Assembly (NCBI GenBank): GCA_024684065.1
Contig: JAIKXO010000170.1
Location: 1 to 32,622, forward strand
Source: Lachnospiraceae bacterium
GTDB lineage: Bacteria; Bacillota_A; Clostridia; Lachnospirales; Lachnospiraceae
Length of the DNA: 32,622 nt
Reading direction: 5' to 3'
This document shows, one piece after another, positions 6,437 through 22,424 of the stretch (position 1 is its first letter; each line of letters opens with the position of its first letter). The notes beneath the pieces are model-generated. The model saw only the letters and a program-made list of their open reading frames with translations. It was not told the DNA's origin and did not search any database. The translations under genes and the position numbers were made by a program.

Positions 6437-6492
6437 CGATGATTTTTATGAAATAAATCATCGGAGCCGAAAACAATTATTATTTTTTCGGC
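6437..6492 (+). terminator. Two hairpins after nusG
   Basis: CGATGATTT (6437-6445) pairs with AAATCATCG (6455-6463), starting right after the nusG stop. GCCGAAAA (6466-6473) pairs with TTTTCGGC (6485-6492); its T-run lies inside the stem and no free U-tract follows. Probably a partial terminator or processing site, with read-through into rplK possible. Confidence 0.5.
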
Positions 6493-6534
6493 ATTAATGG
6501 ATTTATGTCAGTAAATCCTATATTGATCATTCAG

Positions 6535-6561: not shown

Positions 6562-6784
6562 CTGGCTCCAAATTCTCTTCGAGAACCTGGAGCGTGCACC
6601 AAATTTCCTGATAGGGAAATTAGCGAAAGGCTGGCCTCAAATTTTCTTCGAGAACTTGAGGCGTGCATCAAATTTCCTGATATGGAAATTAACGAAAGGC
6701 TGGCCTCAAATTCTCTTCGAGAACTTGAGGCGTGCACCAAATTTCCTAAGGAAATTTGGCGCTGGGAGGGGGGAAGCACCCCCC
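6562..6784 (+). repeat. Three tandem 69-bp hairpin units in the rplK-rplA leader
   Basis: Units lie at 6562-6630, 6631-6699 and 6700-about 6766; the third diverges at its end. Each has a first hairpin (GCTCCA/TGGAGC in unit 1, GCCTCA/TGAGGC in units 2 and 3) with an inner helix TTCTC-TTC-GAGAA. A second hairpin is AATTTCC/GGAAATT. In unit 3 this becomes a perfect 10-bp stem (6737-6746 with 6750-6759). A G6/C6 hairpin (6768-6773 with 6779-6784) closes the array 12 nt before the rplK Shine-Dalgarno sequence. Two base pairs of the first stem change compensatorily between unit 1 and units 2-3, which points to selection on RNA structure. Confidence 0.85.
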
Positions 6785-11370: not shown

Positions 11371-11376
11371 ATACAA

Positions 11377-11524
11377 GGTCGTTTGACCGTGCCGAAGACA
11401 GCAGGTGCTTTTAAGCGTAAGAATCCACAGCGGTTCACCAGCCGAGGAAGAAAAAGGTTATATGGATTGTTTCATTCGTTAATTGTGTGCCTTTCTTTCC
11501 GCTTCGGATCGAGGGCTTTTTTAT
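11377..11524 (+). ncRNA. L10 leader RNA (autoregulatory binding site for L10/L12)
   Basis: The element contains CCGAAGACAGCAGGTGC at 11392-11408 and ACCAGCCGAGGAAG at 11437-11450, the two conserved strands of the Firmicute L10 (rplJ) leader that form the kink-turn binding region. A terminator hairpin follows. In this family excess L10(L12)4 binds the leader and lowers rplJL expression by premature termination. Confidence 0.88.
11489..11522 (+). terminator. Attenuator terminator of the L10 leader
   Basis: GCCTTT (11489-11494) pairs with GAGGGC (11511-11516), and TCCG-CTT-CGGA forms the top of the stem. A T-run at 11517-11522 follows. It lies about 50 nt before the rplJ start. Confidence 0.8.
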
Positions 11525-11570
11525 TTATAAAGAGCCTGACAAAATATAAAGAAGGAGGTAAAGGTTCAAT

Positions 11571-12679: not shown

Positions 12680-12740
12680 TAAGGCAATAAAGGGATTTGT
12701 GTTACTGATCCCGCCAAATTATAAAAAAAATATAAAGTGA

Positions 12741-12770
12741 TTGACATTATAAAAGAGTTTGTGTTACCAT
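12741..12770 (+). promoter_or_regulatory. Candidate promoter of rpoB-rpoC
   Basis: A perfect TTGACA (12741-12746) is followed after 18 nt by TACCAT (12765-12770), or after 17 nt by TTACCA; the -10 is poor. A direct repeat TTTGTGTTAC (12696-12705 and 12758-12767) overlaps the region. A weak -10 behind a perfect -35 could mean activator or RNA-level control. Confidence 0.55.
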
Positions 12771-12776
12771 GGAGAA

Positions 12777-12992
12777 TGCTTTACTGTGGAAACATGGGCT
12801 CTTTTATGCTTAGAAGAGCAGCATTACAGTATTCTTTCAGCCGAAATAAGCGCTTTCGGCTCCTCAAGGTTTTGCCAAAAGTCAATATATAGTTCAGTAT
12901 AGTGTCCTGGAAAAACTTTGGGATCGAAAAGTTCTTTCCATTAGAACTTTTCTGCAATTTATCAATAATATTCAAAACGGGGTGAAACGTCG
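12777..12992 (+). promoter_or_regulatory. Folded rpoB leader with box-plus-hairpin motif
   Basis: Helices include GCTCTT...AAGAGC near 12797-12820 and AGCCGAAA (12839-12846) with TTTCGGCT (12854-12861). The motif shared with the rpsL-rpsG spacer comes next: anti-box CAAGGTTTT (12865-12873), box AAAAACTTTGGGA (12911-12923), a 10-bp hairpin (12926-12935 with 12943-12952, 7-nt loop) and GCAAT (12954-12958). The box can pair with the anti-box through nine pairs, one of them a wobble. The rpoB site GGGGTGA follows at about 12979. Confidence 0.65.
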
Positions 12993-15900
12993 ATGGAAAA
13001 AAACAGGATACGTCCCATTTCCACAGGCAGGAATACTCGTATGAGCTTTTCGAGACAGAAGGAGGTTTTGGAGATCCCCAATCTGATCGAGGTTCAGAAG
13101 AATTCCTACCGTTGGTTTCTGGAAGAGGGTCTAAAGGAAGTATTTGATGACATTTCTCCAATCACGGATTACAGCGGGCATCTCAGCCTTGAGTTTGTTG
13201 ATTTCAAACTCTGCGAGGATGACGTAAAGTATTCCATTGAAGAATGCAAGGACAGAGACGCTACTTATGCGGCACCGCTTAAGGTCAATGTCCGGCTGTA
13301 CAACAAGGAAAGCGGGGAGCTTATAAGCCATGATATTTTCATGGGAGATCTTCCCCTGATGACTGCCACGGGCACCTTTGTAATTAACGGTGCGGAAAGA
13401 GTCATAGTCAGCCAGCTCGTAAGATCGCCTGGCATATATTATGCCATAAGCCATGATAAGTTTGGCAAAAGGCTGTTTTCATCGACTGTAATACCTAACA
13501 GAGGCGCATGGCTGGAGTACGAAACGGACTCCAATGATGTGTTTTTTGTGCGCGTAGACAGAACCAGGAAGGTTCCCGTTACCGTGCTCATACGTTCGCT
13601 CGGTATAGGGAGCAATCAGGAGATCATAGACCTCTTCGGCGATGAGCCGAAGATCATGGCATCTTTTACCAAGGACACCTCCACGAACTACGAGGAGGGC
13701 CTCAAGGAGCTTTACAAGAAGATAAGGCCCGGAGAGCCCCTTACCTTAGAGAGCGCGGAAAGCCTTATCAACGCCATGTTTTTTGATGCAAGGCGTTACG
13801 ACCTTGCAAGAGTAGGCAGATATAAGTTCAATAAGAAGCTTTCCTTTAAGAAGAGGCTTAAGAACCAGATCCTTGCCGAGGACGTTGTAGATCAGGAGAC
13901 CGGCGAGATCCTCGCGGAGGCGGGAACGAAGCTGTCCGAGGAGCTTGCGGAGAAGATCCAGAATGCGGCCGTTCCTTATGTCTATATTCAGACTGAAGAG
14001 AGAAACGTAAAGGTCCTTTCCAATATGATGGTAGACCTCAGGTGCTATGTGGATGTGGATCCTAAGGAATACGGGATCACAGAGCTTGTTTATTATCCCG
14101 TGCTTAAGAGGATCCTTGATGAGTGCGGGGAAGACGCGGAGGCTCTTTCCGATGCTCTCCACGCCAACGTCCATGAGCTTGTTCCCAAGCATATCACAAA
14201 GGAAGATATCATAGCTTCCATAAATTATAATATGCATATCGAATACGGCATCGGTACGGATGACGATATCGACCACCTTGGAAACAGGCGTATCAGGGCG
14301 GTGGGCGAGCTTCTTCAGAATCAGTACAGGATAGGGCTTTCAAGGCTTGAAAGAGTGGTCAGGGAGCGTATGACGACTCAGGATCTTGAGACCGTATCCC
14401 CTCAGGCCCTTATAAATATCAAGCCCGTGACTGCCGCTGTAAAGGAGTTTTTCGGTTCCTCACAGCTGTCACAGTTTATGGACCAGAACAATCCATTAGG
14501 CGAGCTTACCCATAAGAGGCGTCTTTCGGCTCTTGGTCCCGGCGGTCTTTCCAGGGACAGGGCCGGATTCGAGGTACGAGACGTGCATTATTCCCATTAC
14601 GGAAGGATGTGCCCGATAGAGACTCCCGAAGGTCCCAACATAGGCCTTATCAACTCCCTTGCATGCTACGCGAGGATCAATGAATACGGCTTTGTGGAGG
14701 CGCCCTACAGAAAGATAGACAGATCGGATCCGGAAAATCCCGTGGTTACGGACGAGGTCGTATACATGACCGCGGACGAGGAGGATAATTTCCACGTTGC
14801 GCAGGCGAATGAGCCACTGGATGAAGAGGGCCATTTCGTAAAGCGTATGGTTTCCGGACGTTATATGGACGAGACTTCGGAATATGACAAGTCGATGTTC
14901 GAATATATGGACGTTTCGCCGAAGATGGTATTTTCGGTGGCTACAGCGCTAATTCCTTTCCTTGAGAACGATGATGCTAACCGCGCTCTCATGGGATCCA
15001 ACATGCAGCGTCAGGCGGTTCCGCTTCTTATCACCGAGGCTCCTGTCGTGGGTACAGGAATGGAGCCCAAGGCAGCGGTCGATTCGGGGGTCTGCGTTGT
15101 CGCAAAGAAGTCCGGTACCGTTAAATATGCGATGTCAAATGAGATAAGCGTGGCCAATGACGATGGAACCAAGGAAGTCTACAGGCTTTCAAAGTTCATG
15201 CGGAGCAACCAGTCAAACTGCTACAACCAGAAGCCTATCGTAGAAAAAGGCGAGCATATAGAGGCCGGCCAGATCATAGCCGACGGGCCTTCCACCTATA
15301 ATGGAGAGCTTTCCCTCGGAAAGAACCCTCTTATAGCCTTTATGACCTGGGAGGGTTACAACTATGAGGATGCTGTTCTTCTGAGTGAGAGGCTTGTCCA
15401 GGATGATGTGTATACATCCGTTCATATAGAAGAGCATGAATCAGAGGCCAGGGATACAAAGCTTGGCCCTGAGGAAATAACGAGGGATGTTCCCGGTGTA
15501 GGTGAGGAAGCTCTTAAGGACCTCGATGAGAGAGGAATAATCCGCATCGGCGCGGAGGTAAGAGCAGGCGATATCCTCGTGGGAAAGGTCACTCCCAAGG
15601 GAGAGACGGAGCTTACAGCAGAGGAAAGGCTCCTTCGGGCTATCTTCGGTGAAAAGGCAAGAGAAGTAAGGGATACTTCCTTAAAGGTTCCCCATGGTGA
15701 ATACGGTATCGTAGTGGATGCCAAGATCTTTTCAAGGGATAACGGGGACGAGCTGCCTCCCGGAGTAAATCAGTCGGTAAGGATATATATAGCTCAGAAG
15801 AGAAAGATATCCGTCGGTGATAAGATGGCAGGCCGTCACGGAAACAAGGGTGTTGTTTCCCGTGTGCTTCCCGTTGAAGATATGCCTTATCTTCCTAACG

Positions 15901-21205: not shown

Positions 21206-21619
21206 ATGCCAACATTTAACCAGTTAGTAAAACAGGGCAGGCAGTCTTCAGTAAAGAAGTCTACGGCTCCGGCACTTGGAAAGGGCTTTAATTCCCTGCA
21301 TAAGCGTGCCATTGATACTTCTTCTCCGCAGAAGAGGGGCGTATGTACGGCCGTTAAGACTGCTACACCCAAAAAGCCTAACTCAGCGCTCAGAAAGATC
21401 GCAAGGGTACGTCTTTCAAACGGTATCGAGGTTACAAGCTATATCCCGGGTGAAGGCCATAACCTTCAGGAGCATAGCGTAGTTCTTATTCGTGGCGGCA
21501 GAGTTAAGGATTTACCTGGTACAAGGTATCATATCATCCGCGGAACGCTTGATACGGCGGGAGTTGCAAACCGCAGGCAGGCCCGTTCCAAGTATGGTGC
21601 CAAGAGACCCAAGAAGTAA
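21206..21619 (+). CDS. rpsL: 30S ribosomal protein S12
   Basis: 137 aa, the longer Firmicute form with an insert after LGKGFNS. The decoding-centre motifs [12 protein letters not shown] and [13 protein letters not shown] keep the lysines at the two classical streptomycin-resistance positions, so the sequence looks drug-sensitive. The GTGAGGTG site lies upstream of the ATG. It is the first gene of the str-type operon. A 334-nt folded spacer follows before rpsG. Confidence 0.97.
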
Positions 21620-21953
21620 GATAAGCCGTTAAAACGGCAGGCCAGGTAAGTTTGTACCACATAAAACTAAATGTTAGCATTCCGACAAAGTTTTTTTGGG
21701 CTGTATATCATATGTTTCTATAGCCTGAATTCCAAAAAACTTTGGGACAGAAAACATGTGTATTTTACATGTTTTCGGCAATAATGAAAATCCGTCGGGA
21801 TTTTCTGCCCCTGTTTTTTGAGTAAGCGACAAAAAACTTTGGTTAGTAAACTTCCCATCAGATATATAAGAAGTTCTTACTGGCGGACACTTAGAATATG
21901 TGAGTACCTATGATTTAATTATCTTTTTTAATTTGATTAAGGAGGGAAGATCA
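21620..21953 (+). promoter_or_regulatory. Structured rpsL-rpsG spacer with duplicated box motif
   Basis: No gene is present. GCCGTT-AA-AACGGC lies near 21626. Anti-box CAAAGTTTTTTTGG (21686-21699) pairs with box 1 CCAAAAAACTTTG (21732-21744). Box 1 continues to GGGA, 2 nt, a 10-bp hairpin (21750-21759 with 21767-21776, 7-nt loop) and GCAAT (21778-21782). GAAAATCC-GTCG-GGATTTTC (21786-21805) follows. Box 2 (21830-21842) can pair with GTTTTTTG (21813-21820) or with the far anti-box. An AGTAA/ACTT hairpin (21845-21853 with 21871-21881) precedes the rpsG site. S7-based feedback in this spacer is known from E. coli; the motif here is different. Confidence 0.7.
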
Positions 21954-22424
21954 TTGCCACGTAAAGGACACATTCAAAAAAGAGACGTACTGGCTGACCC
22001 CATCTATAACAGCAAGATCGTGACCAAACTGGTCAACAATATCATGCTTGACGGTAAGAAGGGTACAGCCCAGAAGATCGTGTACGGAGCTTTTGAAAAG
22101 GTAGAAGAAAAGTCCGGAAAACCCGCGCTTGAGGTTTTCGAGACTGCTATGAACAATATCATGCCTGTGACTGAGGTTAAGGCAAGGCGTATCGGTGGTG
22201 CGACCTATCAGGTTCCTATCGAGGTAAGGCCCGACAGAAGACAGGCACTGGCTCTCCGCTGGCTTACGATGTTTTCACGCAAGAGAGGCGAGAAGACGAT
22301 GAAGGACAGGCTTGCGGGAGAGATCCTTGACGCTTCCAATAACACCGGATCGGCTGTCAAGAGAAAAGAAGACATGCACAAGATGGCAGAGGCGAACAGA
22401 GCTTTTGCACATTATCGTTTTTAA
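21954..22424 (+). CDS. rpsG: 30S ribosomal protein S7
   Basis: 156 aa from a TTG at 21954. The AGGAGGG site at 21940-21946 sits 7 nt upstream, and the resulting N-terminus (M)[15 protein letters not shown] matches S7. An ATG at 21900 would add 18 unrelated residues. Conserved parts are [49 protein letters not shown] and the C-terminal [21 protein letters not shown]7 nucleates the 30S head. fusA follows after 18 nt. Confidence 0.97.

Follow-up and report, generated by a model that had tools for sequence, protein, structure and literature searches.

A modular palindromic repeat dispersed in intergenic spacers of a few Lachnospiraceae, including those of RNA polymerase and ribosomal protein genes

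The window analysed here, a stretch of 32,622 nt from a Lachnospiraceae bacterium (assembly GCA_024684065.1, contig JAIKXO010000170.1), carries nusG, rplK, rplL, rpoB, rpsL and rpsG among its genes. A first-pass annotation, made from the sequence alone, had described a box-plus-hairpin motif shared by the rpoB leader and the rpsL-rpsG spacer. Rereading of the sequence returned all of its parts: the 13-nt box AAAAACTTTGGGA occurs in identical copies at 12911-12923 and 21735-21747, each accompanied by a hairpin of 10 bp with a 7-nt loop (12926-12952 and 21750-21776), by GCAAT on the 3′ side of the hairpin (12954-12958 and 21778-21782) and, upstream, by an arm able to pair with the box (12865-12876 and 21686-21699). 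These parts belong to a modular element that consists of a stem (stem C), the hairpin just mentioned (hairpin B), the sequence GGCAATAATG or GTCGATAATG and a further hairpin (hairpin A), followed by approximately CTATCCT. The element is intergenic, strongly folded and about 90-170 bp long, within the limit of roughly 200 bp of the BOX/BIME class. Some copies carry a second C stem, and in the pgk-tpiA gap of one relative (G023) the element occurs in tandem. The arms of stem C, delimited by script, measure 5-22 nt and its loop 3-51 nt. With regard to the terminal inverted repeats that characterise MITEs, copies of the C-B-A type are by eye devoid of inverted ends, and in those with a second C stem the ends are palindromic and resemble each other. 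The candidate that the hairpins act as intrinsic terminators was rejected, as by visual inspection neither hairpin B nor hairpin A is directly followed by a run of T.

Three copies are present in the window, all on the + strand. Copy 1 (12865-12958), in the rplL-rpoB gap, is made up of stem C (arms 12865-12876 and 12909-12920), hairpin B (12926-12952) and GCAAT (12954-12958), and has no hairpin A. Copy 2 (21686-21842), in the rpsL-rpsG spacer, comprises stem C (21686-21699 and 21732-21744), hairpin B (21750-21776), a linker (21777-21785), hairpin A (21786-21805) and a partial second C stem that repeats the box-stem (21814-21842). Copy 3 (6437-6524) lies in the nusG-rplK gap, starts immediately 3′ of the nusG stop codon and contains stem C (6437-6445 and 6455-6463), hairpin B (6466-6492) and hairpin A (6499-6518). 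The first-pass annotation had overlooked hairpin A and the partial second C stem of copy 2, as well as copy 3 in its entirety. A covariance model (R1), whose five training copies were that of the rpsL-rpsG spacer and four found in relatives, scored its training copy in the window at 92 bits and also matched two copies on which it had not been trained, copy 3 with 39.9 bits (match spanning 6461-6524) and copy 1 with 33.8 bits (E = 3.7e-6 over the window).

Repeated 13-mers are common in this window (it has 82, of which 33 fall entirely within one tandem array at 6562-6747, and 30 shuffles averaged 11), so that identity of the 13-nt box alone is weak evidence; accordingly, box matches with up to three mismatches numbered 19 when 12.9 were expected, and 7 of 100 shuffles reached 19. 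Perfect hairpins of 10 bp with a 7-nt loop gave a clearer result: the window contains exactly two, those of copies 1 and 2, and 20 dinucleotide shuffles produced one in total. By this hairpin count and by the untrained R1 match to copy 1, the layout shared by the two copies exceeds chance. The tandem array itself, 2.7 copies of a 69-bp unit, occupies part of the nusG-rplK spacer; relatives have in its place GTGGGAGG...CCGCCACTACCAC, which we take to resemble an L1-type leader.

The first 500 residues of RpoB served as the query of a scan that retained 80 loci, the closest of which (L001, 87% identity) belongs to a Lachnospiraceae MAG (G001), and 37 genomes of its genus were used as the congener set. 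BLAST of window positions 21600-22300 against these congeners recovered the orthologous region and also scattered sites in three of them, G023, G028 and G022. The scattered matches cover only parts of 21731-21806, and matches confined to the element are the mark of a dispersed repeat. A second model, R2, built from 19 copies with the rpoB copy left out, gave at E ≤ 0.01 19 matches in G028 (18 distinct copies and one antisense duplicate), five in G023 and one in G022, and none in the remaining 34 of the 37 congeners. Antisense matches to palindromes, such as G028:C48:19818 on the + strand, were excluded from the copy counts, and since the model searches score a limited number of candidates per genome, weak copies may be missed. 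Thus, G028 and G023 each hold several dispersed copies at unrelated loci (18 and 5), as in the BOX/BIME class. A search of 195 relatives of G028 with R2, run with the more stringent filters applied to large sets, returned identical carrier counts and no match in the remaining 192 genomes. No R2 match was obtained in 299 drawn genomes of the family; that draw included no known carrier, so the search of 195 relatives serves as its positive control. R1 matches in G025 (E = 1.2e-4) and G007 (E = 0.07) disappeared with R2 at 0.01 and were not counted. The exact box was found in 51 of 195 relatives of G001, many of which were also matched by a reversed-pattern control, so the box alone says little. 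Among viral contigs, one pattern hit nine stretches, none of which the model matched at E ≤ 1, and the other pattern hit none. A distant BLAST search of plasmids and phages with a single copy of 115 bases found nothing. The first-pass annotation had raised a dispersed regulatory RNA as a possibility, and BLAST and the R1 and R2 searches of congeners bore out the dispersal, revealing a scattered family with covarying stems.

We then considered whether the stems are maintained. In the 19-copy alignment, 97.4% of the cells at paired positions were standard pairs compared with 81.7% in shuffles, 11 of 19 pairs had changed on both sides, and the covariation score was 0.408 versus 0.126 in shuffles and at most 0.114 with slid structures; additional pair types were no more numerous than in shuffles (166 of 500 reached their number). 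These figures lean towards structure because the alignment was fitted to that structure and the copies are related. The stems of the element are kept by compensatory changes. One case is stem C in the rpsJ-rplC gap, CGAAGTTTTTTG/CAAAAAACTTCG in G023 and GCGGCAATTTGG/CCAAATTGCCGC in G028, where the sequence differs and pairing is kept. When bulges were allowed, 21 of the 27 copies had an 80-nt stem C region whose folding surpassed that of 95 or more of 100 dinucleotide shuffles; of the other six, three stood at 7 of 100, and two copies, G028:C36 and G023:C42, gave no signal. With an ungapped stem C score, 12 of the 27 copies ranked above all 60 mononucleotide shuffles and two equalled the highest of them. 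On the gene strand, the folding z scores of window copies 1, 2 and 3 were −4.6, −6.0 and −5.1; the opposite strand gave −3.3, −4.6 and −4.8. Both strands fold, and the folding signal is therefore not strand-specific.

The genomic context was analysed for 27 copies (18 from G028, five from G023, one from G022 and three from the window) located in 26 gaps. Twelve copies run with the neighbouring genes and 15 against them. Some sites lie among genes for ribosomal proteins and RNA polymerase, namely nusG-rplK (window and G028), rplL-rpoB and rpsL-rpsG (window), rpsJ-rplC (G023 and G028) and, in relatives, the gap before rplF and rpmD-rplO. Others adjoin pgk-tpiA and ackA (both assigned from protein ends), an OmpA-family gene, the prolyl-tRNA synthetase gene, genes for a sugar-binding protein and an ABC ATPase, a type II secretion F gene, flagellar hook-type and FlhB genes, and a glycoside hydrolase gene. 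One copy separates tRNA-Thr from tRNA-Tyr, both on one strand. Two further copies, at G028:C80 (L225) and G028:C94 (L290), lie between smpB (identified by eye) and tmRNA and between a CIRCE-like repeat and lon; the latter, being downstream of the CIRCE-like repeat as judged by eye, sits in a leader. Hence the fixed orientation and consistent gene context of a cis-regulatory leader or riboswitch were not found. An unedited codon-score gene caller was applied to 25 of the 26 gaps, the set without the tRNA gap. Three had a neighbour missing, and all 22 resolved gaps were co-directional, compared with 190 of 237 other gaps of 60-800 nt at the same loci (80%; 29 divergent and 18 convergent). This excess (one-sided Fisher P = 0.0099, with sites that are not all independent) is a weak bias, suggestive only.

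Orthologous sites are frequently devoid of the element. R2 was run on 59 congener loci, 30 around the 5′ end of rpoB and 29 around that of rpsG, with the carriers among them, and even at E ≤ 1 it matched none. In the 23 loci examined, the pattern AA[AG]CTTTGG did not occur within 330 bases upstream of rpoB, and by eye the rpsL-rpsG spacers of relatives that were compared with that of the window showed no such box motif. The nusG-rplK gap holds the element in the window and G028 and is free of it in G020, G001, G006 and G009. In G023, R2 found no match before rplF or rplO on a contig covering both, and the rpmD-rplO gap contains a stretch that, by eye, may be a decayed remnant. Gaps common to two carriers are nusG-rplK (window and G028) and rpsJ-rplC (G023 and G028); a selected function would explain these shared sites too. 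We found no mobiliser, no target duplication and no clean empty site, none being close enough for a target duplication to be read.

The spacers into which the element falls have conserved features of their own. Between rpsL and rpsG, relatives have a conserved leader with GTACCACA, CTAA, AGTGTTGGaATTC, a variable loop, CGAACACA and TGTGAGTACC (window 21655-21940; also L192, L190, L006, L031, L057, L019, L175, L182, L196, L193, L184, L200 and L179), which was compared in a 13-sequence alignment. This leader has no Rfam match and is a candidate S7 autoregulatory site, and its variable part is where copy 2 has been inserted. In rpoB leaders (window 12744-12810; L145, L163 and others), conservation was seen by eye at about TGCACTATTGTGG....TAGGCTCTTTTT around the presumed rpoB promoter and start, together with an inverted repeat formed by AAAAGAGC in the promoter spacer and GCTCTTTT after it. 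The same leader can host other repeats. In a G028 sample of 354,869 nt, mostly contigs chosen for holding the element, pattern searches identified four additional hairpin families (stretches L275-L293, L308 and L309): ATCTGCCC..GGGCAGAT, with nine copies in G028, several beside a second hairpin; AACGCAATT..AATTGCGTT, with 15 copies; and two more dispersed families with four and two copies. None of the four was present in 118,134 nt of G023 or in the remaining 193,439 nt, to which the window belonged. One ATCTGCCC..GGGCAGAT copy lies in the rpoB leader of G028. That this leader carries different repeat families in two species suggests a permissive slot rather than a specific regulator.

We also compared the element with known systems. 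Rfam 15 returned nothing for the element at gathering score: five copy-bearing loci gave no match, and the window matched the L10 leader alone (RF00557, 55.7 bits, 11374-11531), away from the copies. At E ≤ 1, two window regions gave just weak matches to MIR4372 (22 bits, cut-off 100) and rli43 (12.4 bits, cut-off 100). The Lacto-rpoB motif is a structured RNA in an rpoB leader and resembles copy 1 in that respect, but the present element is not specific to rpoB, and no Lacto-rpoB match was listed at 12680-13000 even at E ≤ 1. A search of the open-access literature on intergenic repeats of Lachnospiraceae and Butyrivibrio, with subscription papers outside its scope, found no account of the element.

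The nearest likeness is to the BOX elements of Streptococcus pneumoniae, which are small, modular, highly folded and scattered, co-transcribed with operons and without a clear tie to gene function (PMC3049150). The present repeats share small size, modularity, folding and scatter without a gene-function tie, and differ in sequence and module order (PMC3049150). One BOX separates two T boxes before trp, much as copy 2 lies inside the conserved rpsG leader (PMC3049150). BOX is over-represented between convergent genes in pneumococcus, whereas here none of the 22 resolved gaps, and 18 of 237 others, were convergent, a contrast that is not significant (PMC3049150). REPINs and BIMEs are likewise extragenic palindromic repeats able to fold in single-stranded DNA or mRNA, but the present element is longer and has three modules (PMC3116915). 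REPINs depend on RAYT transposases (PMC3116915). The Y1 transposase (RAYT) family PF01797 matched 18 of the 37 congeners and none of the three carriers G028, G023 and G022, whose genomes may be incomplete, and a RAYT-driven REPIN was rejected on this ground.

Taken together, we consider it likely that the element belongs among the small interspersed palindromic repeats as a new, BOX/BIME-like and non-autonomous family, transcribed as hairpins inside operons. It would have spread through some host or IS function and would be tolerated mainly within transcription units. Its action, if any, would be that of a strand-indifferent string of mRNA hairpins altering operon stability, processing or read-through, and it would sense no ligand. 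A point against this reading is that the copy number is modest.

An orientation-indifferent intercistronic element of mobile origin, now kept by selection in operons for RNA processing or stabilisation, is unlikely. It would fit the co-directionality of all resolved gaps, the position of the lon copy in a leader, the complete turnover of stem C with pairing kept at rpsJ-rplC and the folding of both strands. Yet co-directional gaps already make up 80% of the background (P about 0.01), other relatives do without the element, and palindromes can also stay paired through DNA-level copying. In a quite unlikely and more elaborate form, a mobile-born triple hairpin would be retained only inside transcription units as a strand-indifferent intercistronic RNA device that sets the processing or relative expression of flanking genes; its stems could turn over completely with pairing preserved, and several families per genome would compete for intra-operon slots such as the rpoB leader, nusG-rplK and rpsJ-rplC. 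Preserved pairing and co-directional placement, both read from sequence, leave room for a role in operon mRNA.

The first-pass annotation had suggested that polymerase and ribosomal transcripts share a ligand or a regulatory RNA. A riboswitch or ribosomal-protein leader of this kind, coupling both sets of operons, would agree with the three window copies, all in spacers of such genes, with the relatives' copies at rpsJ-rplC, before rplF and at rpmD-rplO, and with the covarying stems. But copies occur in both orientations and beside unrelated genes, including those for tRNAs, tmRNA, flagellar and glycolytic proteins; the orthologous rpoB and rpsG regions of congeners, 59 loci in all, are element-free; and no Rfam family matches. 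The unrelated contexts, the two orientations and the element-free leaders make this explanation very improbable. The annotation's own refuting observation, copies scattered without conserved structure or gene context, is borne out by half: structure proved to be conserved and a functional gene context did not. Finally, chance similarity of two AT-rich spacers, for which it could be said that the 13-mer by itself is not rare in the window, is scarcely conceivable given the model matches to untrained copies 1 and 3 and the hairpin count against shuffles, and is refuted by the dispersed homologues in other species.

Reading the element as an interspersed repeat removes the tempting idea of a joint switch for RNA polymerase and ribosomes. 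It also shows that a strong hairpin in a ribosomal-operon spacer of these bacteria can have arrived by insertion, a point that bears on the annotation of leaders there. Because the family is found inside operons, it lends itself to testing the influence of interspersed hairpins on operon mRNA.
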